Origin: an uncultured Roseobacter sp.
GTDB taxonomy: Bacteria; Pseudomonadota; Alphaproteobacteria; Rhodobacterales; Rhodobacteraceae
Reading direction: 5' to 3'
Length of the DNA: 64,000 nucleotides
Assembly (NCBI RefSeq): GCF_947493125.1
Contig: NZ_CANLQB010000001.1
Coordinates: forward strand, 620,001-684,000
In this document: piece by piece, positions 33,223 through 50,931 of the stretch
Position numbering within the stretch: position 1 is the stretch's first letter
Layout: each line of letters starts with the position of its first letter
The notes under the pieces: model-generated
What the model saw: the letters and a program-made list of their open reading frames with translations, nothing else
The model's database searches: none
Told to the model about the DNA's origin: nothing
Made by a program: the position numbers and the translations under genes

Positions 33223-33236
33223 TTGAAAATTTTCAA
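33223..33236. promoter_or_regulatory. Operator copy ahead of the capsid gene
   Basis: Perfect 14-bp palindrome TTGAAAATTTTCAA. It overlaps the stop codon of the CsrA-like gene and lies 86 bases upstream of the capsid start. TTGAAA on the minus strand could serve as a -35 with TACAGT 15 bases on. Same sequence as the copy between the divergent regulators. Confidence 0.72.
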
Positions 33237-33463
33237 GACCTATTGCGATCTCGCGGCGGGGTGTCCATCGCGTCGATGGTGTCGTCCGTGATGCTTTCGA
33301 GGTTTGCTGACACATCCTTGTGGTTCAACAACTCGATAAGCAGATCTGGCGGGGCGTCGATGTTCACGCGGGACTCATTGGCCCGATAACGCTGAACAGT
33401 CAGCGTAAACGGGCCAATGCGCACGGTGTCCGCGTCTTTCACCCTGAGGGTCAGACCAGCCAT
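33233..33463 (-). CDS. CsrA-like small protein between scaffold and capsid genes
   Basis: 76 residues. The first ~48 follow the CsrA/RsmA strand pattern: LTLRVKDADTVRIGPFTLTVQRY then RVNIDAPPDLLIEL, against LTRRVGETLMIG...RIGVNAPKEVSV in E. coli. Two RNA-contact positions differ: Arg6 is Leu and the position of Arg44 is Leu. RNA binding is therefore uncertain. A 28-residue acidic tail follows. CsrA proteins bind GGA motifs in mRNA leaders, and the next gene's leader has CCGGAAC and CGGAGAT. It begins 5 bases after the scaffold stop without a clear ribosome site, suggesting coupled translation. Confidence 0.62.
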   Translation of the reverse strand: MAGLTLRVKDADTVRIGPFTLTVQRYRANESRVNIDAPPDLLIELLNHKDVSANLESITDDTIDAMDTPPRDRNRS

Positions 33464-33467
33464 GAAG

Positions 33468-34490
33468 TCAAAACTCGTTCAGGAACGCGTCTTGCTCTTC
33501 GGGTGTCATCTTTGCGAAGGCCGCCTCGGCAACTTCACTGCTGCCTGAACCGATCTTGGCGTCGATGTTGTAGAACCGGCTTTCGGTTGCACCGCCATTT
33601 ACGTCAGTCGCAGGCATATTCGACAGGTTTTCGGGTGTCTCCGGTCGCGGATCAGTGCGCGGTTGAGGCGTGGCGCCTTTGCTTTCGGTTTTGATGGGCG
33701 GCGCCGGGTCGGCTGGTTTGGGATCAGCAGGATCGCTGCTCGCCTTTGGCAATGGCTTTCCGCGTGCCTGTCGGTCGATCTCCAGCAGAGTATACGCATG
33801 TGCGATTTTCTGATGGTCGTCCAAGTGGGAGTAGTTCGGGTTCACATCGACCGCGCGCAAGGTCCGGTCGAATTCTGCGAATACCTCTTGGTCGGCCTTC
33901 AATATCGGGTGGGTGGCCACCATGCGGTCGATTTCGGCGAACCAGCCTTCATTCTCGATGTCGGCGTTCTGCTGTGCAATCTGCTCAGCGTCCCAGACCT
34001 TCCGGGTGGCTTCCAGAAGGCTGTCTTGGAGTTGCTTGTCGCGCCTCTTGAACTCCTCGTCGTCGATATCGCCGTCCATGACCTGTTGAAGCAGGGTTTC
34101 GCGCTCTTTTTCGGCGTCAGCGATCTTGGTCTTGTGCTCGGTCACGTCCGGCACATCTTGAAGCTTGGGCGCTTCAACCTTTGCCTCCTCTGCTGGCGGA
34201 TCAGCACCTTTCGCCGCTTCGGCTTCTTCGGCAAGTTTGGCTTCTTCGGCTGCCTTGGCGTCTTCGGCCTCCTTGGCCTTGGCGGCTTCCTCATCTTCCA
34301 TGTCCTTGAGGAGTTTGCGCTCGTTGTCGGTCAGATGATCAAGCTCGGCGTCGGTCATTGCCGCCGGCATATCATCCGGGCTCTTCGGGGCGTCCGCTTC
34401 GGCCTTCGGCTGCTCAGTCGCTTGATCCTTGGTTTCAGGTGCAGTGGCTTGATCAGTCTCAAGCGTTTTTTCATCAGTATTTCCCGACAT
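33468..34490 (-). CDS. Capsid scaffold-like protein
   Basis: 340 residues, strongly acidic and Ala/Glu/Lys-rich, with a long coiled-coil region (~50-190). The ordered C-terminal part contains GWFAEIDRMVATHPILKAD and DHQKIAHAYTLLEIDRQ. Composition, size and place between portal and capsid genes fit a scaffold protein that guides shell assembly and is later lost. The last residues (MTPEEQDAFLNEF) resemble capsid-binding tails. No protease motif seen. Confidence 0.75.
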   Translation of the reverse strand: MSGNTDEKTLETDQATAPETKDQATEQPKAEADAPKSPDDMPAAMTDAELDHLTDNERKLLKDMEDEEAAKAKEAEDAKAAEEAKLAEEAEAAKGADPPAEEAKVEAPKLQDVPDVTEHKTKIADAEKERETLLQQVMDGDIDDEEFKRRDKQLQDSLLEATRKVWDAEQIAQQNADIENEGWFAEIDRMVATHPILKADQEVFAEFDRTLRAVDVNPNYSHLDDHQKIAHAYTLLEIDRQARGKPLPKASSDPADPKPADPAPPIKTESKGATPQPRTDPRPETPENLSNMPATDVNGGATESRFYNIDAKIGSGSSEVAEAAFAKMTPEEQDAFLNEF

Positions 34491-34502
34491 GGTGTGTCTC
34501 CT

Positions 34503-36722
34503 TTAAGCGGGGATGGGCTGGGGTGGTTGCTCCGGGGGCATTGGCCCCTGTGGCTGTGCTGCAGACTCCGCAGAGCGCTGGGCGGCGTAGAGGATCTGAT
34601 CGGCCGCGTCCGCAACAGCCGGTGCTCCAATCATCTGAATGGCAACCTCGAGGGACTTTTTTATGTCCTCGAGAGAGCCGGAAGCAAGGGATTGCAGGGT
34701 CTTGCGCGTTTCGGCCTGTGTCTTCTTTGCGCGTGCGGCGGTTTCCATGGCCTTGGCTTCGGTCGAGGCAAGCTCGGCCTCTGCTGCGCGCGCCTGCATC
34801 GCTGCTTGAGCGTCTCGCTGTGCCTGCAGGGCCATGGTTTCCTCGTCCGGGTTCTCCGGGTCGGCGTCCGGGTCGTTCTGGCCGGTGACCTGCCGGATGC
34901 GCTTCACAAGCTCTTCTTGCTTCGGCACGTCCAAGGCTTCGACAACCAAATCGAGCGTCGCAATCACGATCTCCGGGGCGGTGGCGGCCAATTTGGTCAT
35001 GAGGTCGAGCAGCGTCTCGGCTTGGGCTTGGCGCGCTGTGGCCGACCAATCAGTTTCATCCAGCACAAAATCAGCTTTGGTCATGGTGATGTCGCTGATA
35101 TCATCTCCAGGTACTACGTTGATCTCCTCCCAGTCAGGATTGCCCCGCATGTTGGTGATGCGGAACATCTTATGCTCGGAGAAGAACTGCTCGATCAAAC
35201 TCAACAGTTTGTCGCCGTGGTGTTTCCGCCCGGATCGCTCAGCCTCAAAGTAATGAGAGGTGGACAGTTGGCCTTCTGTCTGTCGGGCAATGATAGCCTT
35301 ACCAGAGGATGCGTTTGTCTCGCGGCCCATGTTCTCGTCGGTCACGCCGGATATGTTCTGGATAAAATCCATGTCCATTCCCATGAGACCGATATGAGCC
35401 TGTGAGAGGTTGTAGTCGGTCTCGACTGTGGGGGGCTTCCCCCCAGGGGCGTATCCGATCATCGCATCAGGACGGGCAGCCTCGTCGCGCAACTCTTCAA
35501 CGTCAACATCTGTGGTCTTCTCGTAGAACACGCGTGCGCTCGACAGAATATGCAGCGACTTCGATAGGCGTTTGTTGAGATCGCGCTGCGCATCGCGAAT
35601 GTGCCGGATCATGCCATAGGGCATGCCTGTTTCGGCGTCTCGGTTGGCCCACATGGGCGTGAGCGGAAATCGGTTATGCCGGTATGGCGTTGGGCCGTGG
35701 TAAAGCAGCCCTTTGTCGGTGAAGACAGCGACATGCATTATCTGGCGGGGTCGCCGCATAAGCTTGGCTCGCCCACTGTCCAAGTCGGCGTAGTGGCCGC
35801 GGCTCCAAGGGTCGTAGATCTCCCCGGAGAAATCGCCGCCTTTGATTACGTCAGTGGTCATGGTGCGCTTGTACCAGCCTTCAACGAGGCGAAGGCGGCG
35901 TCGGGTCATCGTGCCTGGCCGCAGCACATAGTCGGCCTGATCCCAATACTCGTATTCACGCGCGTCCATGGCGTCGTCGCCCATAGCGTCGATGATCGAG
36001 ATGTTGTTGCCGGTCGTGGACATGACATAGGAAGTCTGGCAACTCTCTTCGAGCAAACGCTGCCGTTTCGGAAACTTTGCTACGCAGCTGTCAAGATCGG
36101 TCCAGCGGCTTCGGAATAGATATCGGCCGTCAGACAGATCGTCTGCTTGGCCGCTGCTGTCCCAGAGCACGTTGCGCCAGCTTTCCCACCCTTCGAACAC
36201 AGGCTCGCGGTCGTAGTCGACCATGTGTCCGGTTTCGAGCCAGCCTATACCCGCGCGCACCAGATCCTTGAACGCTTTGGCGTAGTGTGCGTGCGCGTTT
36301 GAGGTGTCCGAGACATACTTGAGCAGTTCAGTTTTCAACTGCGATGCGGCCAACCCGTCTTTGCGGCGCGGCAGGACGCGGAAATCCTTCGGTGCCCGGC
36401 GCTGCATGCCGAGCATGTAATTGATCGCGGACGCAATCACGTTGAACGTAAGTGGCGCTTGCCCGCGTGATGCGAGGACAAGAAGTTCATCGTCGCTCCA
36501 TTGCTTGTTGTCGTAGAAAGCCTCGTCCATCTGCATCTCAGCGCGTGACGCGGCTTGCCGCTGAAGCTCGGACGTAAACATGCCGACCAGTTCGGAATGC
36601 ACCATCGTGAACAGCGAGTTGTCCAGTTTTCTCGGATCGGTGACGACGCCCTGCAGCGGCTTGGGAAACGCGTCAGGGTTGAATATCACCTCGTTGTCGC
36701 GGCGATCATCGCTATAGTTCAT
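34503..36722 (-). CDS. Portal protein, P22-like
   Basis: 739 residues, close to the P22 portal length. Characteristic pieces are DEAFYDNKQWSDDELLVLASRGQAPLTFNVI, INYMLGMQRRAPKDFRVLPR, a GYAPGGKPP loop and FIQNISGVTDENMGRETNASSGKAI. The C-terminal ~150 residues are an Ala/Gln-rich helical barrel. The portal dodecamer sits at one vertex, forms the packaging channel and binds terminase and tail adaptors. It overlaps the upstream 182-residue gene by 11 bases. Confidence 0.9.
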   Translation of the reverse strand: MNYSDDRRDNEVIFNPDAFPKPLQGVVTDPRKLDNSLFTMVHSELVGMFTSELQRQAASRAEMQMDEAFYDNKQWSDDELLVLASRGQAPLTFNVIASAINYMLGMQRRAPKDFRVLPRRKDGLAASQLKTELLKYVSDTSNAHAHYAKAFKDLVRAGIGWLETGHMVDYDREPVFEGWESWRNVLWDSSGQADDLSDGRYLFRSRWTDLDSCVAKFPKRQRLLEESCQTSYVMSTTGNNISIIDAMGDDAMDAREYEYWDQADYVLRPGTMTRRRLRLVEGWYKRTMTTDVIKGGDFSGEIYDPWSRGHYADLDSGRAKLMRRPRQIMHVAVFTDKGLLYHGPTPYRHNRFPLTPMWANRDAETGMPYGMIRHIRDAQRDLNKRLSKSLHILSSARVFYEKTTDVDVEELRDEAARPDAMIGYAPGGKPPTVETDYNLSQAHIGLMGMDMDFIQNISGVTDENMGRETNASSGKAIIARQTEGQLSTSHYFEAERSGRKHHGDKLLSLIEQFFSEHKMFRITNMRGNPDWEEINVVPGDDISDITMTKADFVLDETDWSATARQAQAETLLDLMTKLAATAPEIVIATLDLVVEALDVPKQEELVKRIRQVTGQNDPDADPENPDEETMALQAQRDAQAAMQARAAEAELASTEAKAMETAARAKKTQAETRKTLQSLASGSLEDIKKSLEVAIQMIGAPAVADAADQILYAAQRSAESAAQPQGPMPPEQPPQPIPA

Positions 36723-37260
36723 CGGTCAGTTCCCCTTCCATGGTCTTGCCCGTGTTGACGTTTGTGATCTGGTAACTTCCAGTCTCGGTGAGGGGGCGGA
36801 GAGGAGGCGGGGGCATTTTCACAAGGTCGTAGGTCCGCTTGCGCACGGCTGTCAGAATGCGGAACAAGGCCTTGGGGTTCTTCGGGTTCATGCCGAGGTA
36901 GGGCGCGAAGTCCAGACACAGGCGGGCCACTTCACGCGCACCATCGGCGGCGACACTGCGCTCGGCCTCGGTATTGAATTTGGCGTCGCCGTAGTCTTCC
37001 CATTTCCAGATGTTGGAGAGCCGCACAATGCAGGGCACGCACTTCGGCACGCTGCGACGCGGATGCAGCAGGACAAGGCAGGGCTCAGGGTCTTTGTCGA
37101 ACACCCATGTGCCAACAACCCGGATGCCTTCGACCATGTGATCGAACGTACGATAGTTCAGATCGAGGACTGGCCGCGTGTAGGTGCGCACGTCCACAAC
37201 TTCATTGTCGCTGCCAGGCGAGGACAGCCCGATCAGTAGGGGGCCTTTGGCGCTGCTCAT
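36712..37260 (-). CDS. Phage protein between terminase and portal, unknown
   Basis: 182 residues, no membrane segment. It contains a Cys pair (SVPKCVPCIVRLSNIWKW) and a proline run (KMPPPPLRPLTE). It overlaps the 61-residue gene by ATGA and the portal gene by 11 bases, so it is in the packaging operon. No family recognised. Confidence 0.62.
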   Translation of the reverse strand: MSSAKGPLLIGLSSPGSDNEVVDVRTYTRPVLDLNYRTFDHMVEGIRVVGTWVFDKDPEPCLVLLHPRRSVPKCVPCIVRLSNIWKWEDYGDAKFNTEAERSVAADGAREVARLCLDFAPYLGMNPKNPKALFRILTAVRKRTYDLVKMPPPPLRPLTETGSYQITNVNTGKTMEGELTDEL

Positions 37261-37442
37261 TCGCCGTACCCCAAACTTTCAAGCACTTTGGAAACGTCAT
37301 TCAGCCAAAACTCAGATTCACGAAGATTGAGCCTAACTCGAATGACGGCAGGGCTTTCTTGCAGAACTTGGTCCAGATGAACATATGCTTCCTGAATATG
37401 CTCAATGGCCGTTTTGATCTTTTTCAGCTCTTCGCTGCTCAT
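37257..37442 (-). CDS. Very small helical protein in packaging operon
   Basis: 61 residues, predicted all-helical coiled coil (SEELKKIKTAIEHIQEAYVHLDQVL). It overlaps the terminase gene and the 182-residue gene by 4 bases each, and the sustained overlaps argue that it is real. Function unknown. Confidence 0.6.
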   Translation of the reverse strand: MSSEELKKIKTAIEHIQEAYVHLDQVLQESPAVIRVRLNLRESEFWLNDVSKVLESLGYGE

Positions 37443-39085
37443 GCGGTCAATCCTGTCGCTCTGCGCTTGGGTTTCTTGTTCGTCGGGCCGGACACTAGGT
37501 CGGTAAGTGCTCCACCAGGCATGCCTTGCGCTTTCTGGCGCAGCGCATCTGCAGCGTGGCTGTGCTCGTCGTGGCGAGGCTGGTTACCCCAGCAGTCGAG
37601 GCGCTGGTTGTATTCGCGGCTGTAGGCTTCGATGTGCGTAAGGCCTTCCTTGGTTCCAGCCTCATCAAAGCAATACGTGGCGAAGTCCCGGCGGGTGAGG
37701 TCGATACCGTTCTGGATCGTGTCAATCTGGGGGACGATGCGGAATGACCATTGCGGTTTCATCTCGCGCAGCATCGTGATCGGTTTGACGATGCTCTCTT
37801 TGCCCTTGATGCTGTTGTTGCCATCGTGGGGCAGGAAGTGATCGCCCCAGAGCACCTCTTGCTGCTCCATCCACAAAATCATGGGGAGATAGCCTTCGCC
37901 GGCTGCCTCACGGAACCTCACGAAATGATCCATGTTCCGCACCTTCTGGTGCAGCCACACGCTCGTTGTGTCGGTGGCGCCGATGTCCCAGAAAGAGTTC
38001 ACCGGCAAGTGACGTATGATCGGATAGGTGCCTATACGGCCTTCCTTGCGGGCAGTCGCGATCACGTGAGCGAAATATCGGCCCTCTGTGGATGCTTGCC
38101 ATGCCTCATCGGGTGTGGATGGGTATTCTCGCAGCATGTCATGCGGGACGGCGCGGAAATCGGCCTCCCGCTTTGCGACGTACCAAGCGCGCTGATCTAG
38201 GTCGATTGACACGTCCATCTCGCCTTCGATCCGGTCGAAGTACGCATGATCGGTCGAGGAGATCACAACAGCCTTGGGCTTCATGCGGTAGCCTGGGTCT
38301 TGCCACCACGGGAAGAAATGGAACTTGTAGTCTGCCCACGAGAGCATTGAGCCAGCGTCGTGCTTGGCTTTGGCGTCGTTGCTCATGTCGTGGAAGGTGC
38401 CGCCCATGCCCTCGGCGGTGGATTCGATGAACACGAGCGCGGACTTGGACGCCGCTTGCAAACTTCCTGTGACAATCTCGCGAGCGTGCGCCGGGCGCTC
38501 GGCTGAAATCTTGCCCATCTCGGACACGTGGATGAATTGGAACGTACCGCTTCGACCTGAGGAGCTGACCTCAATGGTTGAGCCGTTTGCAAACTCGATT
38601 GTCGTGACCGAGTTGATGGTCAGCGGGCACAGCAGGCGCACCCATTCTGGCAGACGGAAATACGCGAACTTGATCTTGTCGCGCATCAGCTTCTTGGCGA
38701 CGTCGAGTGTCTGGGCCACGATGAGGACCGACTGATTGGCGTTCCACACCGCATGATCCAGCGCCATGATCTCGATGAGCGTTGAGAACCCGATTTGCCG
38801 CGCCTTCAGGATGATGTTGCGGTAGTGCAGTGCGTTGAGGAAGTCGCGCTGGGCTTTGTTCGGAATGAAAGCCCCAATCATGTCGGGACTGCCATTGTGA
38901 CCTATGGATGGTGCCTCGTCTTGGTTGGCCGGGTCCAGCGGATCCATCCAGTCATCGTCAAGGTCGGGTTCCTTCAGGCGGATCTTGTAGAGGTGGCCGC
39001 CGAATATGCGCCATTCCCAATCCGAGACCAACTCGCGGGCGTGGTCGTCGTCTCTCGGAACGTCATATGCGGCGGCCCCCATCAT
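37439..39085 (-). CDS. terL: Terminase large subunit
   Basis: 548 residues. The ATPase part has the adenine/Walker A region FLNALHYRNIILKARQIGFST (Walker-type KARQIGFST ~97-105), a HVSEMGKI segment and motif C-like FIESTAEGMGGTF near residue 215. The C-terminal nuclease half includes FWDIGATDTTSVWLHQ (RNase H-like Asp) and DGNNSIKG. It drives DNA into the prohead and cuts the concatemer. Neighbours are the small subunit upstream and the portal downstream, the standard order. Confidence 0.92.
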   Translation of the reverse strand: MMGAAAYDVPRDDDHARELVSDWEWRIFGGHLYKIRLKEPDLDDDWMDPLDPANQDEAPSIGHNGSPDMIGAFIPNKAQRDFLNALHYRNIILKARQIGFSTLIEIMALDHAVWNANQSVLIVAQTLDVAKKLMRDKIKFAYFRLPEWVRLLCPLTINSVTTIEFANGSTIEVSSSGRSGTFQFIHVSEMGKISAERPAHAREIVTGSLQAASKSALVFIESTAEGMGGTFHDMSNDAKAKHDAGSMLSWADYKFHFFPWWQDPGYRMKPKAVVISSTDHAYFDRIEGEMDVSIDLDQRAWYVAKREADFRAVPHDMLREYPSTPDEAWQASTEGRYFAHVIATARKEGRIGTYPIIRHLPVNSFWDIGATDTTSVWLHQKVRNMDHFVRFREAAGEGYLPMILWMEQQEVLWGDHFLPHDGNNSIKGKESIVKPITMLREMKPQWSFRIVPQIDTIQNGIDLTRRDFATYCFDEAGTKEGLTHIEAYSREYNQRLDCWGNQPRHDEHSHAADALRQKAQGMPGGALTDLVSGPTNKKPKRRATGLTA

Positions 39086-39086
39086 G

Positions 39087-39467
39087 TCAGTTGATCAGCG
39101 CCTTGGTCGGTTCCGGCACTTCATCGCCGTTCTCGTCTTCCACAAGCTCTGACTGTCGCCGCAGGGAGTCGTATGCCTGAATTGCAACAGCGGCTAAGGC
39201 TTTCGAACTAGCCAGGGCGTGAGGCACTACGCCACGAATATAGCCATAGTGCTGCTCATTGCAGTTTGGATTGTTGCACTTGTACGAATACCTGACGACT
39301 GCAAAGACGCCGTTATCCGCAACGCCAACCTCTACGATCATCTCTCCATTCGGAAATCCAGCGACATCAAAGTATCTACGCACCTCTGTGAGGTTGAGAG
39401 ACACACAATTCGGCTTTGGTGGCAAAAAGCTATATGCCAACGCATCCTTCATGTCATTGAAACTCAT
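39087..39467 (-). CDS. Phage protein with CxxxxC motif, unknown
   Basis: 126 residues, mixed alpha/beta, with YSYKCNNPNCNEQHYGYI as a possible metal site in the middle. It sits between the two terminase genes, overlapping the 95-residue gene by 4 bases. Function unknown. Confidence 0.58.
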   Translation of the reverse strand: MSFNDMKDALAYSFLPPKPNCVSLNLTEVRRYFDVAGFPNGEMIVEVGVADNGVFAVVRYSYKCNNPNCNEQHYGYIRGVVPHALASSKALAAVAIQAYDSLRRQSELVEDENGDEVPEPTKALIN

Positions 39468-39751
39468 GGCCGATGCCCCTTGAACAACGGTCGGTTGCCT
39501 TTGATCAACGCGGGGTGGCGAGTTGTGCCTTTGCGTCGCCTCATCTTCTGAGGCGTGCCTCTGTATGCGTGAGGCGCCTTGTAGCGGTCGACTGCATCAG
39601 GCGCGGCGCCGAGCGTTGACGTGGTAACGATGGCTTGCGCGTGACGATAGGGCTCGGCCTCCCGCATGGATGCGACCTCTTTTTTGAAGAGTGCGGCGGC
39701 CATGCGGGAGGCGATTTGTGAAAAGATCGTACCGAAGGTGTTATTGGTCAT
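39464..39751 (-). CDS. Small basic protein after the small terminase gene
   Basis: I set the start at the ATG at 39751, which overlaps the small-terminase stop as ATGA; the frame stays open further upstream but without a supported start. This gives 95 residues, basic, with an Ala-rich helix (QIASRMAAALFKKEV) and a very basic tail (KMRRRKGTTRHPALIKGNR). It could bind DNA; no family recognised. Confidence 0.55.
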   Translation of the reverse strand: MTNNTFGTIFSQIASRMAAALFKKEVASMREAEPYRHAQAIVTTSTLGAAPDAVDRYKAPHAYRGTPQKMRRRKGTTRHPALIKGNRPLFKGHRP

Positions 39752-40506
39752 TTGGGCGGGGTTTCCTTCTGTGGTTGGATTGGCGCCCGGGAACCGTTCT
39801 GCGAGAAGGTCTCGTACCATTCCTGCAGCTTGTCTCCGGGCGATAGGGTGCGCTCGTTGTCTTTGGCGAACATGCCGAGCGTGCGGGCGATGTTGTTGAG
39901 AGCCGCGGCGCGGTCCTCCATCTTGATCTCGATGCCGTGCTGGGTCTCTTTGACGCCCGCGTAGAGCGTCTTCGCCGCGGGACTGAGGCGCGTGGTGTCG
40001 TGGGCAACTGTGCGCTGCCGACCGAAACCATCGCATTGCGGGCATTCGATGTTTGGTTCGCGGCGGAACCGGTAGCCGTAACCGCCAGCGTTTGACGGCT
40101 CTCGCATGCTATCGCGCGCTTTCTCGGGCAGGTCGGACCATGCTTGGTGGTGGTCCTCGAATTCGTCTTGATCACGCCACTGGTACTTGAACCCCTTACC
40201 GTGACAGTGACGGCACGATCCCACGATGTGGGAGATGAGTTCGTTGGGATCGGCGAGCGCCAAAGTGGTCCAGCGCTCAAGCACGTCCGCCGTGTCCAGT
40301 TCCAGGGCTTTGGCGTTTTCGCTTTGAAGGAAGGCGACGCGTTCTTGCACTGCAACATCTTTCAACAGCCTTGCGCCTTGAGATCCGGCTGTTTTCTGCG
40401 AGTAACCGGCTTTGCGTGCAGCCTCGGACGCATTGAAGCAGCCAACATAATGTTGGCAAAACAATTCTTTACGGTGATTTTTTAGAGGGACTTCGCCGCT
40501 CGACAT
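39748..40506 (-). CDS. terS: Terminase small subunit with DnaJ-like zinc-finger insert
   Basis: 252 residues. Residues ~8-80 are a Terminase_2 helix-turn-helix (KELFCQHYVGCFNASEAARKAGY, then GARLLKDVAVQERV). An insert at ~95-170 carries two CxxCxGxG elements (CRHCHGKGF and CPQCDGFGR), as seen in a subgroup of small terminases. The C-terminal helix region oligomerises. It recognises the packaging site and hands DNA to TerL. AAAGGGG lies 7 bases before the ATG. It is the first gene of the leftward late operon, and a palindromic operator lies 34 bases upstream. Confidence 0.88.
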   Translation of the reverse strand: MSSGEVPLKNHRKELFCQHYVGCFNASEAARKAGYSQKTAGSQGARLLKDVAVQERVAFLQSENAKALELDTADVLERWTTLALADPNELISHIVGSCRHCHGKGFKYQWRDQDEFEDHHQAWSDLPEKARDSMREPSNAGGYGYRFRREPNIECPQCDGFGRQRTVAHDTTRLSPAAKTLYAGVKETQHGIEIKMEDRAAALNNIARTLGMFAKDNERTLSPGDKLQEWYETFSQNGSRAPIQPQKETPPK

Positions 40507-40539
40507 GCACTACCCCTTTGATGGCCGGGACAATGCCTG

Positions 40540-40678: not shown

Positions 40679-40693
40679 GCGCTGGCGCCCCTT

Positions 40694-43122: not shown

Positions 43123-43138
43123 TTATTGGTTTTTGAAG

Positions 43139-44435: not shown

Positions 44436-44644
44436 GATTGGGCCCTCCGGCAACGTTTCCGGCTGGCCGCAAACAACTGTCGGCGCTCCTCTTTGGTGAT
44501 AGTCCTGATCTTTGCTTGCAACTCGTCGATCTGAGCCTCGCGTTCGCGCAATAGATCGAGAATATCTCCATGGACCTTTGCCTCTAGCCGCCGACCGTAG
44601 TCGTGCATGTTGACTTCGACGCTAATTTTCTCTCGAAAATTCAT
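44432..44644 (-). CDS. Small helical protein
   Basis: 70 residues from the ATG at 44644, which overlaps the methyltransferase stop as ATGA. Helical and charged, with a coiled coil (DILDLLREREAQIDELQAKIR) and a basic tail. Function unknown. Confidence 0.55.
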   Translation of the reverse strand: MNFREKISVEVNMHDYGRRLEAKVHGDILDLLREREAQIDELQAKIRTITKEERRQLFAASRKRCRRAQS

Positions 44645-45822
44645 GCTTGCTCCTCCTCTGCCCACAGGTCGCCCTGCGGATTATTCTCATCACCAATCCT
44701 CGGAAGCGGTTCCGCTGGCCGATCCAATTTGACCAGCCCGTTGGCCAAGCGCGCCCGGGCGAGTGCGGCATATTCAGGGTTCAACTCGATCATGATGCAG
44801 GACAGGCGGTTTTTATGCGCAACCAGCCCGGTTGTGCCCGCGCCGCCGAACGGATCAAGGATCACATCACCTGGTCGGCAGGAAGCGTCTATACATCGCT
44901 GTACGAGTTCCGGCGGGAAGGTGGCGAAGTGCGCTTCTGTGAAAGGTGTGGTCGACATTTCCCAGACCTGCACCGCCGCTGGCTCGTAGTTTCTCAGGTT
45001 ACGGCCTTCACACTTCGGCACATCGTCCAACTGCGTGTGGGTGTTTTCAGGCGTATGCCTGGGCGTGACAGCGCGGCCCTGGCGCGGGCCGCGCGCCTTC
45101 TTGAAACTTCCATGTGTGCCAGACCCCGTTTCCCAACTTTCGGGTATTTTTCTGTTCCCTCGGTCTTGTCTGTACCCCATGGTGGCGTTGTCTTGAGCAC
45201 CGTTGACGTAGCACCCACCGCGAAACGTTGGGGCATCTTCATCGCTCGACCGCGCCTGTCGCACGGCCTCGTAGTTGTAGAAGTACCGCGCGGACTTCGT
45301 GAACATGTAGATCTTCTCGAACGCCACGGCAGGCCGGTCCTTGGCGCTGTCCGGCATTGCGTTCGGTTTGCCCCAGATGATCTCCGAGCGTATCCACCAG
45401 CCGTCTGCCTGCATCGCGATTGCAAAGCGCGCGGGCACCATGCAGAGGTCTTTGGGTTTGAAGTCCTCGCCTATGGTTGAGAACGGCTTATCGCGAAACA
45501 CGCGATCGTCATGCCCGCCCCTTTTGACTTCAGCCGCCGCGCGCCCGTTTGGCGTGGTCGCATAGCAATCGCCGTAGTTGACCCAGCAAATGCCATCGTC
45601 TTTCAGGACGCGATGGATTTCACGAAACACCTTGATCATCGCATCTACATGGCGCCCAACGCTGGCCTCAAGGCCAAGCTGCCCCTCAACGCCATAATCT
45701 CGAAGACCCCAATACGGTGGGGATGTGATCACGACCGATACCGATTTATCCGGCATTTTTCTCAGTGTCTTGAGCGCGTCGCCCACCAGAATTGTGACGG
45801 TATGGTCGGAGTGATCCGTCAT
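44641..45822 (-). CDS. DNA methyltransferase, TSPPY beta class (N4-C or N6-A)
   Basis: 393 residues. Motif IV is VVITSPPYWGLRDYG at ~30-45, at the N-terminus, and motif I is VILDPFGGAGTTGLVAHKN at ~335, near the C-terminus: the beta-class order. Middle elements are FREIHRVLKDDGICWVNYGD and GGCYVNG. SPPY is typical of N4-cytosine and some N6-adenine enzymes. It could protect phage DNA from host restriction or modify it for regulation (a CcrM-like effect in alphaproteobacteria). It lies between the replication-initiator block and the gp88 gene with 4-base overlaps on both sides. Confidence 0.86.
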   Translation of the reverse strand: MTDHSDHTVTILVGDALKTLRKMPDKSVSVVITSPPYWGLRDYGVEGQLGLEASVGRHVDAMIKVFREIHRVLKDDGICWVNYGDCYATTPNGRAAAEVKRGGHDDRVFRDKPFSTIGEDFKPKDLCMVPARFAIAMQADGWWIRSEIIWGKPNAMPDSAKDRPAVAFEKIYMFTKSARYFYNYEAVRQARSSDEDAPTFRGGCYVNGAQDNATMGYRQDRGNRKIPESWETGSGTHGSFKKARGPRQGRAVTPRHTPENTHTQLDDVPKCEGRNLRNYEPAAVQVWEMSTTPFTEAHFATFPPELVQRCIDASCRPGDVILDPFGGAGTTGLVAHKNRLSCIMIELNPEYAALARARLANGLVKLDRPAEPLPRIGDENNPQGDLWAEEEQA

Positions 45823-46019
45823 GCATCCATCTCCTTTTTCAGCTTTTTGAGGGCTTCCAATGTGTCGGCATAGTGCTGCCTGTAGCGCCCGCCGCGGCGG
45901 AGCTTGAGGCGGCTGTACAATTCGATGGTCTCGTCAAGACGGGAGAGCGGGTAGTTGGCAGACCAGACGGCGCCTTGCAGCGCGAAAGACTTACCATCGG
46001 GCAGACGCACGGCTTTCAT
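45819..46019 (-). CDS. Small phage protein, unknown
   Basis: 66 residues, basic, with a C-terminal helix (DTLEALKKLKKEMDA). It overlaps both the replication-like gene and the methyltransferase gene by 4 bases. Function unknown. Confidence 0.55.
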   Translation of the reverse strand: MKAVRLPDGKSFALQGAVWSANYPLSRLDETIELYSRLKLRRGGRYRQHYADTLEALKKLKKEMDA

Positions 46020-46747
46020 CTGCGTCCTCCCTTCGCGCTTCTGTTCAGGGCGGCTATGATTTGTTGTGGGTCGCCTGTCTTATTCTCTGTTTCAATCTCA
46101 CTCTCTGTCTTTGTCTCTTTCTCAATCTCTATCTTATCTCTTTGTATCGGTATGGCTTTCGATACCCCTATCGGTAGATCTATAGGGAGGGATATGTTGA
46201 GGGCTTCTTGAGACTCCGGCGGCAAGTCACTGAATGCCGCTTCCCAAGATGTGACGCCGATTTGTGCGCGATGTTCGACAAGCGCGGCGGCCAGCATGTT
46301 GAGCGCATCTGCGCGGTTCTCGATCTTGTTCCATGAAGCGACGCGGGCGATCATGGCTGCCGAAATACCAAAGAGAGTGTGGGTTCTGATCGGCGACATG
46401 ACAGGCAACTCGCCCACCGATTTGAGGTATCCGGCAAGCGTCTTGCGGCTGCCGATCTCGTTGAACTCGAACCAGTTGCAGATCGCGACAATATCCTCAT
46501 CGGGATCGTGCTTGATCAGGCCGACATCTGCGATCTCTCGTATGACACGATACGCTTCGTCGAGGTCGGCAATTCTGAGGTCCGCGGCCAGATAGGCAGC
46601 GGGCAAGTAGAAAGCTCCTATGGGCGGATTATGCCTGCATGTGAGCAGATACAGGTAGGCATATCGGCAGCGATCATCCGGCAGCGCGCGAAACCTGCGG
46701 CTCTGCCAGATGCCCTGACCGACCATCCTGAAGCGTCGCTTAGCCAT
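46016..46747 (-). CDS. Phage replication-initiator-like protein
   Basis: 243 residues. The first ~100 resemble the winged-helix N-terminus of phage O/DnaD-type replication proteins: GIWQSRRFRALPDDRCRYAYLYLL, PIGAFYLPAAYLA, then EAYRVIREIADVGLIKHD. The C-terminal part has a Glu/Lys/Thr run and is likely disordered. Such proteins bind the phage origin and recruit helicase. It heads the leftward early block, next to the divergent switch. Origin iterons within or near it were not evident by eye. Weak operator-like sequence lies at 46773-46786 upstream. Confidence 0.68.
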   Translation of the reverse strand: MAKRRFRMVGQGIWQSRRFRALPDDRCRYAYLYLLTCRHNPPIGAFYLPAAYLAADLRIADLDEAYRVIREIADVGLIKHDPDEDIVAICNWFEFNEIGSRKTLAGYLKSVGELPVMSPIRTHTLFGISAAMIARVASWNKIENRADALNMLAAALVEHRAQIGVTSWEAAFSDLPPESQEALNISLPIDLPIGVSKAIPIQRDKIEIEKETKTESEIETENKTGDPQQIIAALNRSAKGGRR

Positions 46748-46798
46748 GCGGAAAAAGTGTTAACAACGTCCATTGAATTTTTTTTACAGAATTCATAT

Positions 46799-47080
46799 CT
46801 AACGCCCTGTATCCAAAGTTGTTTTGGAAGTTTCAGGAGGTTTTTTCCGAATATGATCGTTCGCGGCCATCCAATCGCGAAGTGCATCGACCTCCCTTTC
46901 CAGACGTTGGATCTTCCGTTGGTGAAACGCGGCCCAGGCGCCATATCCCAGCGCCCAGCCGCAAATCGTGGAGATCGAATAACCTGTTTTTTTCGAGAAT
47001 GCCTTGAGGTCATCCATGATCGTAAGGATGGTCTTCGGCTGGCTCTCGGGTTGCTCGGGGTTGGTTTTTATACTGCTCAT
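46799..47080 (-). CDS. Small Cro-like regulator candidate opposite the repressor
   Basis: 93 residues. A candidate helix-turn-helix lies at ~22-45 (LKAFSKKTGYSISTICGWALGY), followed by a charged helix (RKIQRLEREVDALRDWM). It is transcribed divergently from the HTH repressor, and its promoter region contains two operator copies. On the minus strand TATACT (47095-47090) would be a -10, placing the transcript start almost at the ATG, so the message could be leaderless. An internal ATG at 47020 is an alternative start. The Cro role is inferred from position. Confidence 0.6.
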   Translation of the reverse strand: MSSIKTNPEQPESQPKTILTIMDDLKAFSKKTGYSISTICGWALGYGAWAAFHQRKIQRLEREVDALRDWMAANDHIRKKPPETSKTTLDTGR

Positions 47081-47091
47081 GAGGCGAGCAG

Positions 47092-47105
47092 TATAAAATT
47101 TTCAA
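47092..47105. promoter_or_regulatory. Switch operator 2 (overlaps leftward -10)
   Basis: TATAAAATTTTCAA: right half matches the consensus exactly, left half has two changes that create an AT-rich -10-like sequence on both strands. Its centre is 25 bp from operator 1. Bound repressor here would block the leftward promoter. Confidence 0.65.
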
Positions 47106-47116
47106 CAACTAGGCAA

Positions 47117-47130
47117 TTGAAAATTTTCAA
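47117..47130. promoter_or_regulatory. Switch operator 1 (perfect palindrome)
   Basis: TTGAAAATTTTCAA between the divergent regulator genes. On the plus strand TTGGTA (47132) and TAGGAT (47154), 16 bases apart, are a plausible repressor promoter directly beside it. Hence autoregulation is likely. Confidence 0.75.
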
Positions 47131-47168
47131 CTTGGTAATGGTCGGTTTCTAGTTAGGATTGCAACACT

Positions 47169-47498
47169 ATGAAGACATTCGTTGAATCATTTATTGAGCA
47201 CGTTCGGGCAAGCGAAACTCCGATAGCGGAGTTGTCCCGGCGTACCGGCGTATCAAAATCGAAGATGGATGCGCTGATGAACAGGCGCGCAAAATCGACT
47301 ACTGTCGATGATGCGATGAAAATCAGCAAGTTTTTCGGAAAGAGCGTGGAGGAGTTCTGTTCAACACCACCTGATCCGAAAATTCTGCAGATTATCAGTC
47401 TTGTGCAGAAGCTTTCACCTCAGGAGCGAGACTTGGTAGAGGGTCAGCTAAGAGGGCTTCGCGCTCTTCGCGATGCTCCAAGGAACAGACCTCACTGA
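47169..47498 (+). CDS. Small HTH repressor (immunity repressor candidate)
   Basis: 109 residues. The first ~65 form an XRE-type helix-turn-helix (FIEHVRASETPIAELSRRTGVSKSKMDALMNRR) followed by AMKISKFFGKSVEEFC. The rest is a short helical tail (LQIISLVQKLSPQERDLVEGQL) that may dimerise. There is no peptidase domain, so induction would not use LexA-like self-cleavage. AGGA lies 10 bases before the ATG. It sits beside the two switch operators and is the best candidate to bind all copies of the palindrome. Its 3' end is overlapped in antisense by a 54-codon gene. Confidence 0.78.
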   Translation: MKTFVESFIEHVRASETPIAELSRRTGVSKSKMDALMNRRAKSTTVDDAMKISKFFGKSVEEFCSTPPDPKILQIISLVQKLSPQERDLVEGQLRGLRALRDAPRNRPH

Positions 47499-47559
47499 GC
47501 CATTCCAACACTTCGTCCGCTTCTTCGTCGGACATGCCTTCGAACAATTCTATTTTCAT
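47395..47559 (-). CDS. Antisense small ORF over the repressor 3' end
   Basis: I choose the ATG at 47559 with GGGGA 4-5 bases upstream; 54 residues (MKIELFEGMSDEEADEVLEWL), acidic and helical. About 104 bases overlap the repressor gene in the opposite direction. Two operator-like sites (47601, 47631) lie upstream, where its promoter would be. Could be a small anti-repressor whose transcript also opposes the repressor mRNA; this is inference. Confidence 0.5.
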   Translation of the reverse strand: MKIELFEGMSDEEADEVLEWLSEVCSLEHREEREALLADPLPSLAPEVKASAQD

Positions 47560-47600
47560 ATTCCCCACACTACGTTGTGCGTACCGAGCACCCAAATCAG

Positions 47601-47614
47601 TGTAATATTTTCAA
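47601..47614. promoter_or_regulatory. Operator-like half-site
   Basis: TGTAATATTTTCAA; the right half is consensus and the left half differs at three positions. On the minus strand TATTAC with upstream TAGTCA (17-base spacing) is a weak promoter candidate for the antisense small ORF. Confidence 0.5.
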
Positions 47615-47630
47615 CATCACCGATTGACTA

Positions 47631-47644
47631 TATAAAATTTTCAA
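47631..47644. promoter_or_regulatory. Operator-like site identical to switch operator 2
   Basis: TATAAAATTTTCAA, the same 14 bases as at 47092-47105, 30 bp from the 47601 site. The 47560-47776 gap otherwise holds no supported gene; it is a second regulatory island. Confidence 0.6.
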
Positions 47645-47776
47645 TTTACGCAAGGGTCGGTAAGTGCGATTTGACACTCACTGACCGCGGCCTTCCCCAA
47701 GTCCATCATGCGGTCGAGTTACATACTCTACAGTTATCACTTGTGGTCTGTGGAGTGGCTTTCAAGAGGTACCAGC

Positions 47777-47923
47777 ATGCGCGGCCTGCAATCAAGGATT
47801 GACGAGATCGACAAGATAAACTCCCGTAGGTTTATCTCCTTAAGGCAGATCACACTGTACGTGCTGATATCCCTGTGCGTGTCTTCACTGACACCGGTTC
47901 TTTTTTTGTGGCTGGCGGGTTGA
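47777..47923 (+). CDS. Small single-pass membrane protein
   Basis: 48 residues from the ATG at 47777, chosen because AAGAGG lies 7 bases before it. A charged N-terminal half (RGLQSRIDEIDKINSRRF) precedes one membrane helix (YVLISLCVSSLTPVLFLWLAG). Its TGA stop lies inside the next operator copy. First gene of the rightward operon; perhaps an exclusion or anti-repressor-type peptide, unproven. Confidence 0.55.
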   Translation: MRGLQSRIDEIDKINSRRFISLRQITLYVLISLCVSSLTPVLFLWLAG

Positions 47924-47933
47924 AAATATTCAA
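47920..47933. promoter_or_regulatory. Operator copy at the junction of two early genes
   Basis: TTGAAAATATTCAA with flanking G and C (16-bp near-palindrome). It includes the stop codon of the 48-residue gene and ends 2 bases before the ATG at 47936, replacing any normal ribosome site. Confidence 0.68.
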
Positions 47934-47935
47934 CT

Positions 47936-48310
47936 ATGCGTGAGCCAACTTCCCTTTCGACACTTCTTGAATGGTACAACGCGTGCATCGAGGGCGGTGT
48001 TCCGCCGAGGGTGTATGACGACGAGCCGCAATGCGGCTGGTTCAAGATGCGGTTCCGTAAAAACAGCCCATGGCAACCGTGTCGCATCTGGATGGATCAG
48101 GTTTGCGAAATCGACGAGCCTGGGCGTTTAGCTCAGCCAGAAGAATTGCGCGCAGAGGTGGCTGGGCGTCGTTGGGACCCGATCAAGCTTTGGACCTGGT
48201 ATCATCCTCGTCCAATTCCGCGCGCGGACTACAACGCGCTGACAGCAACTCTGCGTCAGCAGAACACGTTTTTGAAGCCCGGTGACTACCGGGCGCCGGC
48301 GCGCCTGTGA
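47936..48310 (+). CDS. Phage early protein, unknown
   Basis: 124 residues rich in Trp, Arg and Pro (YNACIEGGVPPRVYDDEPQCGW; RRWDPIKLWTWYHPRPIP). No membrane segment. No ribosome site is visible because an operator palindrome occupies the -3 to -16 region, so it may be read from a leaderless or coupled message. Function unknown. Confidence 0.6.
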   Translation: MREPTSLSTLLEWYNACIEGGVPPRVYDDEPQCGWFKMRFRKNSPWQPCRIWMDQVCEIDEPGRLAQPEELRAEVAGRRWDPIKLWTWYHPRPIPRADYNALTATLRQQNTFLKPGDYRAPARL

Positions 48311-48501
48311 TCAAGCGCGCCACATACCGAGATGAGGTCGAGCAGATTGAGCAGACCTGCAGCACCAAGCGTCGCAGAACGACAGTGACTGCCAAGAACG
48401 CGACCCGAGGAGAGTCGCCACGCCCGCATGCGCCGAGGAGCCGAAAGCTGACGCGCATGCGGGCACCATTCACACCAATGCTGGAGCAGCGATATGCCTG
48501 A
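48307..48501 (+). CDS. Small basic protein, GTG start
   Basis: 64 residues starting at a GTG that overlaps the previous stop as GTGA. Strongly basic (TKRRRTTVTAKNATRG; RKLTRMRAPFTP), probably nucleic-acid binding or disordered. Overlaps the next ATG by 8 bases. Moderately supported by the chain of overlaps. Confidence 0.45.
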   Translation: MIKRATYRDEVEQIEQTCSTKRRRTTVTAKNATRGESPRPHAPRSRKLTRMRAPFTPMLEQRYA

Positions 48502-48814
48502 ACCGAAGTTTCACAATATGACCGCCGCGGAAACAGCCGCGATGATGAATGGCCGAACGAAGATGGTTCATGACATTCTGATGGCCGCCGAGGCATCGGC
48601 ACGGGAACACGACCTTCCGGCGCACATCGCAGTGACCGCCTTGGGCGATGCCTCTGCGAGTTTCGGAGCAGCTGTGGCAATGGAGGCTTCAAAGGAAGAT
48701 AAAAACCCGCCGATAGCGGCGGAGGGTATGCTTGAATACCTCATCGCAGGATTCCGCCGCTCGTTCAGAAGCCGGGTGAAACACATGCTCAAGGCTGGGG
48801 GTTTCACCCACTAA
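48494..48814 (+). CDS. Phage early protein, unknown
   Basis: 106 residues, helical, Ala-rich (LPAHIAVTALGDASASFGAAVAM) with a basic C-terminal part (RRSFRSRVKHMLKAGGF). The stop overlaps the helicase start as TAATG. Function unknown. Confidence 0.58.
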   Translation: MPEPKFHNMTAAETAAMMNGRTKMVHDILMAAEASAREHDLPAHIAVTALGDASASFGAAVAMEASKEDKNPPIAAEGMLEYLIAGFRRSFRSRVKHMLKAGGFTH

Positions 48815-49941
48815 TGGCGGTTGCCCTTTCTAAAATGCAGGCCGAAGCGCGCGACTTTGCCCAGCGCTGGTTTAAGGCCGGTCAGGACCAAGTGTTTCGT
48901 ATTTGGGGTTATGCTGGCACGGGCAAATCGACCAGCGCTCAGGCGATCGTATCTGCGACCGAGGCCGCGCCGTGCTATGGGGCTTACACCGGAAAGGCAG
49001 CCGCGGTTATGCGAAAGCACGGCTGCGAGGGAGCGGCCACGCTGCACAGCTTGATCTATGAGCCCCGGCAGCGACCGGATGGCGGGTTTGATTTCGAGGT
49101 CAATAAGGACGGGCCGCTCTCCGAGTGTGATCTGATTGTGGTCGATGAGGTCTCGATGGTGGACCGAGACATTGGAGAGGATCTGCTGTCCTTTAAAAAG
49201 CCGTTGCTCGTCCTGGGTGACCCCGAACAGTTGCCACCACCGAACGACAAAGGCGGGTACTTCACGCAGGCCGATCCTGACGTGTTCCTCACTGAGATAC
49301 ACCGTCAAGCAGAGGGCGATCCAATTGTCCGCCTGGCGACAGAGGCACGCTTAGGCCGCAGCCTGCCGATGGGGTGGATGGGCAAAAGCCGCGTCGTGCG
49401 TCGGAGCGACATGACAGGCGTCGAGATGATGAACAACATGGTTGATCACGACCAGGTTATTTCAGGGAAGCGCGATACCCGGGCTGCCATGAATTCGAAC
49501 ATGCGTCGCAAATTAGGTTTTCAGGGACTGTATCCACTTACGGGGGAGCGGCTTGTATGCCGCCGAAACAACCGCGACCTCGGTATCTACAACGGCGGAT
49601 CGTTCACAGTCATGAGCGACGCGAAGGAAGTCCTCGACGAGGAAAAGGGGGAAACCTTTCTGCACTTCCTTGTGCGCAGCGAGGACGAGCCGGACCTCCT
49701 CTTGGAGGTTAAGGTGCATCCCTGCCACTTCCCCGGCGGTGGTGACAAGCCGCACTGGAAGACGCTCAGAGGCAGCGAAGAGTTTGAATACGGGTACGCG
49801 CTTACATGCCACCTGTCTCAGGGTAGTCAATGGCCCAGCGTGTTGATCAAGGATGAGAGCCATGTCTTTGGCCAAGACGCCAAACGGTGGCTTTACACGG
49901 CGATCACGCGCGCGTCCGAGCAAGTGACGGTGGTAATATGA
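48814..49941 (+). CDS. Dda/RecD-like SF1 DNA helicase
   Basis: 375 residues. Walker A is GYAGTGKST near residue 35. Walker B is LIVVDEVSMVDRDIG near 110, followed by LVLGDPEQLPP (motif III) near 132. The C-terminal UvrD_C_2-type region has TCHLSQGSQWPSVLI near 335 and YTAITRASEQVTV at the end. This is the SF1B helicase layout of T4 Dda and RecD2 without extra domains, expected to unwind 5'-3' during phage replication or recombination. It is the first clear replication gene of the rightward operon. Confidence 0.88.
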   Translation: MAVALSKMQAEARDFAQRWFKAGQDQVFRIWGYAGTGKSTSAQAIVSATEAAPCYGAYTGKAAAVMRKHGCEGAATLHSLIYEPRQRPDGGFDFEVNKDGPLSECDLIVVDEVSMVDRDIGEDLLSFKKPLLVLGDPEQLPPPNDKGGYFTQADPDVFLTEIHRQAEGDPIVRLATEARLGRSLPMGWMGKSRVVRRSDMTGVEMMNNMVDHDQVISGKRDTRAAMNSNMRRKLGFQGLYPLTGERLVCRRNNRDLGIYNGGSFTVMSDAKEVLDEEKGETFLHFLVRSEDEPDLLLEVKVHPCHFPGGGDKPHWKTLRGSEEFEYGYALTCHLSQGSQWPSVLIKDESHVFGQDAKRWLYTAITRASEQVTVVI

Positions 49942-50291
49942 TAGACCGACAGGCGCTCATCCAGATCAGCGAAAGACGGTTGATCATCATCGACAAGGTG
50001 CTCGAGCGCGTCTTTGTTGACCCGGTGACAGGCTGCTGGATTTGGCAGGGGCCGACCTCGGGCGACGGCCGAGGGGGAGGTTACCCACGCATGCACCTCG
50101 ACGGTCAGACGGTGGCGGTGCACCGCTTCATGTTCGTGTGCGTGCATGGGTTTGTTCCGGGCAAAAAGCAGATCGACCATACCTGCCGCAACCGGATGTG
50201 CGTGAACCCATATCCCGAGCACACCGAAATGGTGACACACAAGCAGAACCAAAAGCGCAGAGACAAAGCAATTCAGGAGGGCTCGCCATGA
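49938..50291 (+). CDS. HNH endonuclease
   Basis: 117 residues from the ATG at 49938 (ATGA overlap with the helicase stop). The HNH core is VAVHRFMFVCVHG, KKQIDHTCRNRMCVNPYPEHTEMVTHKQN; it holds the His-Asn-His metal site with two cysteines. An N-terminal GCWIWQG segment is typical of small phage HNH proteins. It could be a homing-type nuclease inserted between the helicase and GapR-like genes, or take part in DNA processing. Confidence 0.8.
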   Translation: MIDRQALIQISERRLIIIDKVLERVFVDPVTGCWIWQGPTSGDGRGGGYPRMHLDGQTVAVHRFMFVCVHGFVPGKKQIDHTCRNRMCVNPYPEHTEMVTHKQNQKRRDKAIQEGSP

Positions 50292-50539
50292 GCGACGAAG
50301 AAACTTACCGCGTTACCGCCAATGAGTTGCGCCAGTTCGTCGAACGGATTGAGCGCCTGGACGCGGAAAAGAAGGACCTGGCCGAGCAGCAGAAAGAGGT
50401 TTTGGCTGAGGCTAAGGCCCGCGGCTATGACACCAAAATTGTGCGGAAGCTCATTGCTCTGCGCAAACGCAACGCTGACGACATAGCCGAGGAGGAGGCG
50501 CTTCTCGATATGTACAAGCAGGCGTTGGGGATGAACTGA
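50288..50539 (+). CDS. GapR/DUF2312-like DNA-binding protein
   Basis: 83 residues matching the DUF2312 family across its length: ELRQFVERIERLDAEKKDLAEQQKEVLAEAKARGYD and KIVRKLIALRKRN. In Caulobacter, GapR is a nucleoid-associated protein that clamps overtwisted, AT-rich DNA ahead of replication forks. A phage copy could aid phage replication or mimic the host protein. The family is mainly alphaproteobacterial, which supports the host assignment. Overlaps its neighbours by ATGA and one base. Confidence 0.82.
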   Translation: MSDEETYRVTANELRQFVERIERLDAEKKDLAEQQKEVLAEAKARGYDTKIVRKLIALRKRNADDIAEEEALLDMYKQALGMN

Positions 50540-50931
50540 TGGAGGAGTTCGTTCACATCGGCAAACTCGCAGAGCGGCTTGGTATCACGACACGCGCGCT
50601 GCGGTTCTACGAGTATAACGGCTTGCTGAAATCCCAGCGGTTGAGCGAGAAGGGACAATCGCGCAGGCTATACTCGCCTGAGATGTGTGAACGTGCCCGG
50701 CGGATCGTATTGGCGCGCAAGGCGGGCGTGTCCGTGGCGGCGATCTGCGACAACTACCCGCTCGAGCAACTTGACCTTGTGATCCCGCACCGTGTTTTCC
50801 TCGCCATGAAGGTTGAAAATATTCAACTTATTAAGGGATTGGGTGAGAAAAATACGATGATCGACCAGATTTGCTTCGGCAATCTGGAAAGGGAGGGCGT
50901 CTTCTGCGGACCGCCCGATGAAATCACATGA
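50539..50931 (+). CDS. MerR-like transcriptional regulator
   Basis: 130 residues. The first ~70 form a MerR winged helix (HIGKLAERLGITTRALRFYEYNGLL; RRLYSPEMCERARRIVLAR). The C-terminus is short and not a known sensor. An operator copy lies inside the coding sequence at 50813. Could control late or host genes; target unknown. Confidence 0.75.
   Translation: MEEFVHIGKLAERLGITTRALRFYEYNGLLKSQRLSEKGQSRRLYSPEMCERARRIVLARKAGVSVAAICDNYPLEQLDLVIPHRVFLAMKVENIQLIKGLGEKNTMIDQICFGNLEREGVFCGPPDEIT
50813..50826. promoter_or_regulatory. Operator copy inside the MerR-like gene
   Basis: TTGAAAATATTCAA with G/C flanks, identical over 16 bases to the copy at 47919-47934. It encodes Val-Glu-Asn-Ile-Gln-Leu of the regulator. 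A repressor bound here would act as a roadblock rather than at a promoter. Confidence 0.65.

Follow-up and report, generated by a model that had tools for sequence, protein, structure and literature searches.

A dispersed 14-bp palindrome in a Roseobacter prophage as a candidate operator set for early and late phage genes

Dispersed operators are a known kind of phage control, and a prophage of an uncultured Roseobacter sp. may carry a further example (assembly GCF_947493125.1, contig NZ_CANLQB010000001.1, positions 620,001–684,000; this stretch of 64,000 nt is called the window below), here with nine palindromic sites and a small Cro/CI-type helix-turn-helix (HTH) protein, P0001, as their candidate reader. 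Phage phiC31 carries conserved inverted repeats that are palindromic, dispersed over its genome and bound by the c repressor, with a host and a repressor type different from those considered here. In P1, as described in PMC8546580, 22 asymmetric C1 operators of 17 bp are dispersed, and late genes are activated by Lpa, itself under C1 control. The cluster A mycobacteriophages, exemplified by L5, carry over 20 sites, placed in promoters and in short gaps between genes, with motifs that diverge along with their repressors; the L5 sites are 13 bp long, asymmetric and oriented, and are recognized by a monomer that has two DNA-binding domains (PMC9283540, PMC6550527). In SPbeta, chromatin affinity purification and sequencing (ChAP-seq) showed the master repressor MrpR, whose elements are called SPBRE, to be bound in the promoter regions of 10 named prophage genes; MrpR has been likened to tyrosine recombinases, and most of the genes it controls are of unknown function (PMC10516654).

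A preliminary description of this DNA had named P1 C1 sites and L5 stoperators as the closest analogues, a likeness that holds for dispersal and fails for the symmetry of the sites and the type of repressor. As in P1, a single repressor (proposed here) would act on widely dispersed sites, but these are 14-bp palindromes rather than asymmetric 17-bp sequences; unlike L5, the prophage combines palindromes with a small single-HTH protein. P0001, an HTH_26 protein of 109 amino acids, is also unlike MrpR in having no relation to tyrosine recombinases. Of the lambda-type Cro/CI arrangement, in which a Cro/CI-type HTH protein binds palindromic operators by divergent promoters, the prophage has the palindromes and an HTH_26 protein, for which binding is predicted here; lambda-type operators, however, are confined to the immunity region, and the prophage sites are not. 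On this comparison, dispersed palindromes with a Cro/CI-type HTH protein are nearer to lambda-type operators multiplied across a genome than to the P1 or L5 arrangements. A literature search, with the original Bcep22/BcepIL02 and DC1 papers outside its scope, found no description of such a system; the main texts of the JC1 and CSP3 phage papers mention no operators, palindromes, promoters or inverted repeats, and an Ochrobactrum phage paper mentions no operators, palindromes, inverted repeats or repressor. Under the proposed control, the promoters of the regulator, the terminase and the capsid gene would all answer to one palindrome.

The motif is the 14-bp palindrome TTGAAAATTTTCAA. All nine positions originally listed carry it with zero to three mismatches, and the three copies described as identical perfect palindromes are exactly that:

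33223–33236: operator-like site, perfect palindrome, between a CsrA-like open reading frame (ORF) and the major capsid gene
40540–40553: operator-like site, one mismatch; the terminase small subunit gene starts 33 bp away (ATG at 40506, minus strand)
43109–43122: operator-like site, perfect, upstream of a leftward block beginning with the ORF at 43020
47092–47105: operator-like site, two mismatches, in the divergent region ahead of leftward ORF 46799–47080
47117–47130: operator-like site, perfect, 25 bp from 47092 and ending 38 bp before the HTH gene
47601–47614: operator-like site, weak, three mismatches, 30 bp from 47631
47631–47644: operator-like site, two mismatches, downstream of the HTH gene and upstream of a rightward block
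47920–47933: operator-like site, one mismatch, ending 2 bp before the ATG of ORF 47936–48310
50813–50826: operator-like site, one mismatch, inside the MerR-like ORF 50539–50931

The motif is real and confined to the prophage. At up to three mismatches there were 10 matches against 1.56 expected from 100 dinucleotide shuffles (largest 5; none of the 100 reached 10); the tenth match, at 42770, lies within an ORF and fits chance. Site 47601 is weak taken alone; what makes it credible is mainly its neighbour 47631, 30 bp away. Across the genome searched (4,834,951 bases in 32 contigs), all six matches at up to one mismatch fall inside the prophage, and at up to two mismatches 8 of 11 fall within this 17.6-kb part of it and three elsewhere, so that the frequency in host DNA is not equal, as the preliminary description had predicted; a reversed-pattern control gave one match genome-wide. 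Of 394 family genomes searched, 10 contain the exact 14-mer, with three copies within 14 kb here, two in one other genome (G224, on separate contigs) and one in each of the remaining eight. Scans blind to the motif sequence ranked it first in the window. Intergenic motif tests, each with five shuffles, gave a clear result at 14 bp (5 regions against 3 in shuffles) and a slight excess at 16 bp with up to four mismatches (8 regions against 5–7). An exact-motif scan of viral contigs was uninformative, with one palindromic site each among the matches listed (at least 80), and a search for the paired-site pattern returned one A+T-rich contig (29% G+C).

The centres of eight of the nine sites are intergenic, in a region (32022–51292) of which 7.6% is intergenic by our ORF calls; intergenic DNA is A+T-richer there (53% against 42%), which somewhat favours such a motif in it. 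Copies precede the capsid gene, the terminase small subunit gene, the leftward block and the HTH regulator, as had been noted, and four sites (33223, 40540, 43109 and 50813) are 3–14 kb away from the HTH gene. In a small correction to the earlier listing, 50813 falls within the reading frame of the MerR-like gene and does not precede it. Site 33223 includes the TGA stop of the CsrA-like ORF and is separated by 85 bp from the capsid ATG (33137, minus strand), and site 47920 includes the TGA stop of an ORF ending at 47923. Putative promoters at 40540, 43109 and 47092 were read by eye, and a separate consensus scan was also run. By eye, a putative TTGACT (40558–40553) overlaps site 40540 by one base, the rest of the site falling within the 17-nt spacer ahead of a weak CATTGT (40535–40530); site 43109 is 10 bp from a TTGACA (43098–43093, minus strand); and the altered half of 47092 reads TTTTATACT on the minus strand, forming a leftward -10-like element (TATACT). 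The consensus scan placed a rightward promoter-like match at 47611–47638, spanning the pair 47601/47631.

Two local features adjoin these sites. Around the start codon of the leftward 93-residue ORF lies an inverted repeat, TATACTGCTC/GAGCAGTATA (47069–47095), and the -10-like element, read by eye, is so near the ATG of this ORF that a leaderless message is possible. Beside the terminase unit, 40651–40670 forms a strong terminator-like hairpin with its T-run on the plus strand, after a plus-strand stretch with room for a short rightward RNA; Rfam gave no match at this hairpin region.

The likely reader of the sites is the protein encoded between the two central pairs:

47169–47498, plus strand: P0001, Cro/CI-type HTH protein of 109 amino acids (HTH_26, 28.3 bits against a Pfam cut-off of 22)

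Four sites flank its gene, at -77/-52 and +432/+462, the members of a pair being 25 bp apart upstream and 30 bp apart downstream. The profile scan of P0001 found no peptidase domain, and an AlphaFold model from the single sequence (mean predicted local distance difference test score, pLDDT, 64.8) shows the helix layout at most. Homologues occur in 33 of the 394 family genomes, this one included, and are distant as judged from the best other match (E 7e-17, 37% identity). Surroundings were checked at 20 of 36 listed homologue places, namely this locus and 19 others. At least three copies of one palindrome surround the gene here and in two other genomes, G088 and G311, with a different sequence in each: G088 has GTGCCAATTGGCAC-like sites at -87/-61 and +473/+502, with spacings of 26 bp upstream and 29 bp downstream, and G311 has TAGGCATATTTACCTA once upstream (-131) and twice downstream (+514/+543), 29 bp apart. 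The G088 locus lies in a tailed-phage prophage with a tape-measure gene. All three genome-wide matches to the G311 palindrome are at its HTH locus, as are 4 of 11 matches to the G088 palindrome at up to two mismatches, where a reversed-pattern control gave 4. It is mainly because G088 and G311, 2 of the 19 other loci, share this flanking layout that the sites are assigned to P0001. Queries with P0001 found no relative in viral and GTDB contig scans; among phages it matched only 13 Streptococcus satellite phages, over 40–44% of its length, and its G088 homologue had no match among phages.

By its genes the prophage is a Bcep22/PBC5-like podovirus. Its portal, terminase, head and helicase genes group with those of Sinorhizobium phage PBC5, Agrobacterium phage Atu_ph08, Pseudomonas phage Itty13 and the Bcep22-like phages, and the Bcep22-like DC1, BcepIL02 and JC1 resemble it in related structural genes and a similar gene order. 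The genes that enter the comparison are:

9465–22046: giant protein of 4193 amino acids (ORF call), fitting the protein of about 4000 amino acids of this group
32022–33137, minus strand: major head protein, phrog_334 (there with a longer start, 33176)
37439–39085, minus strand: terminase large subunit, phrog_2
39748–40506, minus strand: terminase small subunit, phrog_51
46799–47080, minus strand: leftward ORF of 93 amino acids, divergent from the HTH gene, without a Pfam or NCBIfam match
50539–50931, plus strand: MerR-type HTH protein (profile match), a rival reader

The presence of the sites in related prophages, on which the preliminary description had made its proposal depend, is found for the pattern and not for the sequence: the window motif had just one match, with two mismatches, across related loci totalling 1.63 Mb, in part redundant, and Lessievirus phages show the pattern with another palindrome. 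The clearest candidate for such a network is Burkholderia phage DC1, which repeats its own immunity-region palindrome at late genes as the prophage does, with a different palindrome and a different repressor. The best 16-bp motif of the DC1 intergenic test occurred in 11 regions against 6–8 in five shuffles, and its seed sits in the repressor/regulator intergenic region. Genome-wide, at up to 4 mismatches in 16, it gave 14 matches, which mark 12 separate places; 11 of these fall in intergenic DNA, which makes up 6.9% of the genome. In comparison, 40 free and 40 symmetry-keeping shuffles of the seed gave means of 4.7 and 4.5 places, of which 0.33 and 0.25 intergenic (largest 3 and 3). DC1 sites lie upstream of genes for the terminase small subunit (107 bp), capsid (68), giant protein (60), holin (~40) and integrase (124). 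The gene behind the 17877 site is a homologue of the window terminase small subunit (36%), and the 30184 site precedes gp48, which shares 48% identity with the window head protein over 248 residues; the DC1 record labels gp48 hypothetical and gp53 major capsid protein. The DC1 repressor is a different CI-like protein of about 196 amino acids, longer than P0001, and tblastn found no significant copy of this type in the window. Matches to the palindrome GGTTCGATNATCGAACC with up to four mismatches numbered 14 in DC1 (null 1.2, largest 5), 7 in 45 kb of JC1 (null 1.2, largest 6) and 8 in 26.7 kb of BcepIL02 (null 0.6, largest 5).

In a strict test, the immunity region was compared pairwise with the region upstream of a late gene, and the number of 60 shuffles matching equally well was counted. 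For the window this was 0 at the terminase and 1 at the capsid gene; the giant gene has no upstream site, and 51 of 60 shuffles equalled it. DC1 gave 8 (terminase), 4 (capsid) and 0 (giant gene), the capsid regions of JC1, Parlo and PEp14 gave 5, 9 and 5, the PEp14 giant gene 26 and the Itty13 terminase 4. A lenient test, with the best seed and with targets chosen by the analyst, matched targets in DC1 (5 of 5), the window (5 of 6, or 4 of 6 with seed 47116), BcepIL02 (3 of 5), Itty13 (3 of 7), Parlo (2 of 5), PEp14 (1 of 6) and JC1 (0 of 4); the strict test is the fairer and gives the weaker result. When the capsid-upstream palindromes of 22 phages served as seeds, the window was clearest, with 12 places (null 0.8); JC1 had 8 (null 2.0) and PEp14 7 (null 1.0), most others being near null; the PEp14 and JC1 palindromes also match their own repressor intergenic regions at four mismatches. 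The Itty13 palindrome consensus, drawn from sites already known, had 8 matches against at most 2 in shuffles. Of three fixed consensus sequences, one put Parlo above the shuffle maximum (7 against 6, 15 shuffles), and none did so for Itty13 or PEp14. The Itty13, Parlo and PEp14 cases are weaker. Gene-blind palindrome searches in relatives were swamped by G+C-rich coding repeats, and intergenic and focused tests were used instead.

Taken together, these observations lead us to favour, with moderate confidence, the reading that the nine sites are operators of P0001 through which early and late genes are silenced directly. Its grounds are that the motif is enriched, specific to the prophage and placed between genes, and that other palindromes flank two homologous HTH genes; from these we infer P0001 as the binder, its dimerization and repressor action, the promoters themselves and the consequence for late genes, direct late-gene silencing being a well-placed part of the proposal. 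A P0001 dimer would bind the 14-bp palindrome and control its own divergent promoter region through 47092/47117, the region 3' of its own gene through 47601/47631, and the leftward block through 43109. At 40540 and 33223 it would further occupy the terminase-operon and capsid-operon promoters themselves, keeping late genes off directly, besides any early activator route. Sites 47920 and 50813, at or inside reading frames, may be roadblocks or weak auxiliary sites.

Several results weigh against this reading. The G088 and G311 sites are local, not dispersed (one G088 match is 32 kb away), and 17 of the 19 other homologous loci are without a comparable palindrome set; among these 17, four have G+C-rich repeats, taken as coding repeats, and G051 has two copies. 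The consensus scan gave 4 promoter-like sites against 7.5 in shuffles, with none at the capsid site 33223. It did place one at 40607–40579 (minus strand), from which transcription would start upstream of 40540 and make that site a roadblock rather than a promoter operator, and site 43109, being upstream of its -35 box, suits an activator equally. In DC1, the total of 12 places is below the largest shuffle (22 free, 18 symmetric), the intergenic count alone exceeding the null. The strict test was null at the terminase of JC1 (30 of 60), BcepIL02 (38) and Parlo (28) and at the Itty13 capsid gene (27). Nulls also came from the PBC5 terminase small subunit, capsid and giant genes (52, 45 and 54; the PBC5 immunity region, the gp41–gp42 gap, is a guess) and from the G088 large terminase, small-terminase-like and capsid genes (56, 56 and 59). 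In G234, the closest relative found by portal protein (53% identity), none matched at the capsid gene (23 of 60), and the best paired sites surround its own, different repressor. By the strict test, the window and DC1 carry the case, JC1 and BcepIL02 lend it support, and the others are leads. As to G234 itself, its repressor is of the Itty13 type (tblastn E 2e-6), and two pairs of similar sites (L154 10994–11044 and 12663–12713), 33 bp apart within each pair, are separated by about 1.6 kb; a repeated CTTGGTGTAATAGT in G234 was considered as a site and rejected, its regular spacing marking a coding repeat.

The alternatives to direct silencing by P0001 are partly compatible with it and not mutually exclusive throughout. 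The one that survives best, though we consider it unlikely, is that P0001 or a partner activates late genes and represses in the immunity region, the late copies being late-promoter elements. Site 43109, 10 bp upstream of TTGACA, and site 47117, upstream of the HTH gene, are in activator-like positions, but the regulator gene is flanked by the same motif, and the positions of 40540, between a putative -35 and -10, and of 47092, over the -10-like TATACT, suit blocking. Also in favour of an activator, late genes of the rhizobial phages PBC5 and Atu_ph08 have a different common motif, CACTCATGCGC, which recurs at several late gene starts and is perhaps a late-promoter element there; this difference suggests that phages of the group are not all alike in control. 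Its positions are:

L166 14431, 31605, 40367 and 40450; L293 958, 3946 and 14015; L165 7724: CACTCATGCGC

Somewhat less probable still is that the sites act as stoperator-like roadblocks to elongation along the leftward arm, which they do punctuate: 33223 and 47920 contain the stop codon of the upstream gene, 50813 is in an ORF, and the promoter-like match at 40607–40579 lies upstream of the terminase site. L5 stoperators likewise occupy short intergenic spaces, according to PMC9283540. The L5 sites, however, are asymmetric and oriented with transcription, whereas those of the prophage are palindromic, and the hairpin at 40651–40670 suggests separate units, though its T-run is on the plus strand.

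We regard as improbable a reader other than P0001, either the MerR-like protein (50539–50931) or the leftward 93-residue protein. MerR proteins bind dyads between -35 and -10, where 40540 lies, and one site is inside the MerR-like gene; yet no site is directly ahead of that gene and four flank the HTH gene, and the 93-residue ORF has no Pfam or NCBIfam match to recommend it. That the sites serve partition or packaging (parS-like) instead of transcription is very improbable, since short dispersed palindromes would fit such a role but they are placed at gene starts, and no ParB-like match was found among the window proteins scanned (a subset of ORFs).

Beyond this locus, it is possible, though doubtful, that Bcep22-like podoviruses in general maintain lysogeny through a palindrome network spanning the genome, by which early promoters and late ones (terminase, capsid, lysis) are repressed directly, with no reliance on a Q- or Lpa-type activator. 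The present prophage would then have kept the positions and exchanged the repressor type and the operator sequence, all sites changing specificity together. Comparison with DC1 could show how a scattered operator set changes specificity upon repressor replacement, a question that PMC6550527 also raises for the cluster A mycobacteriophages.

Some neighbouring features bear on the annotation of the prophage. The N-terminal 300 amino acids of the giant protein match loci of two relatives, G262 and G234. The 76-residue ORF directly before the capsid gene scored 12.9 bits with Pfam CsrA against a cut-off of 27 (E 0.11), so that its CsrA-like name rests on position plus a sub-threshold match; an annotated CsrA-like gene stands in the same place in Itty13, DC1, Parlo, PEp14 and Skulduggery. 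One candidate for the attachment site is a 14-bp direct repeat (1780 and 58298); both recombinases, a tyrosine integrase (58401–59687) and an adjoining serine recombinase (59803–61353), would then fall outside it, which casts doubt on this repeat. Directly before the MerR-like gene, 50042–50539 encodes a phage protein in which Pfam recognizes a GapR-like DNA-binding domain (E 8.7e-31), and 51289–52410 encodes a phage DNA polymerase III beta-clamp-like protein (Pfam PF02767).

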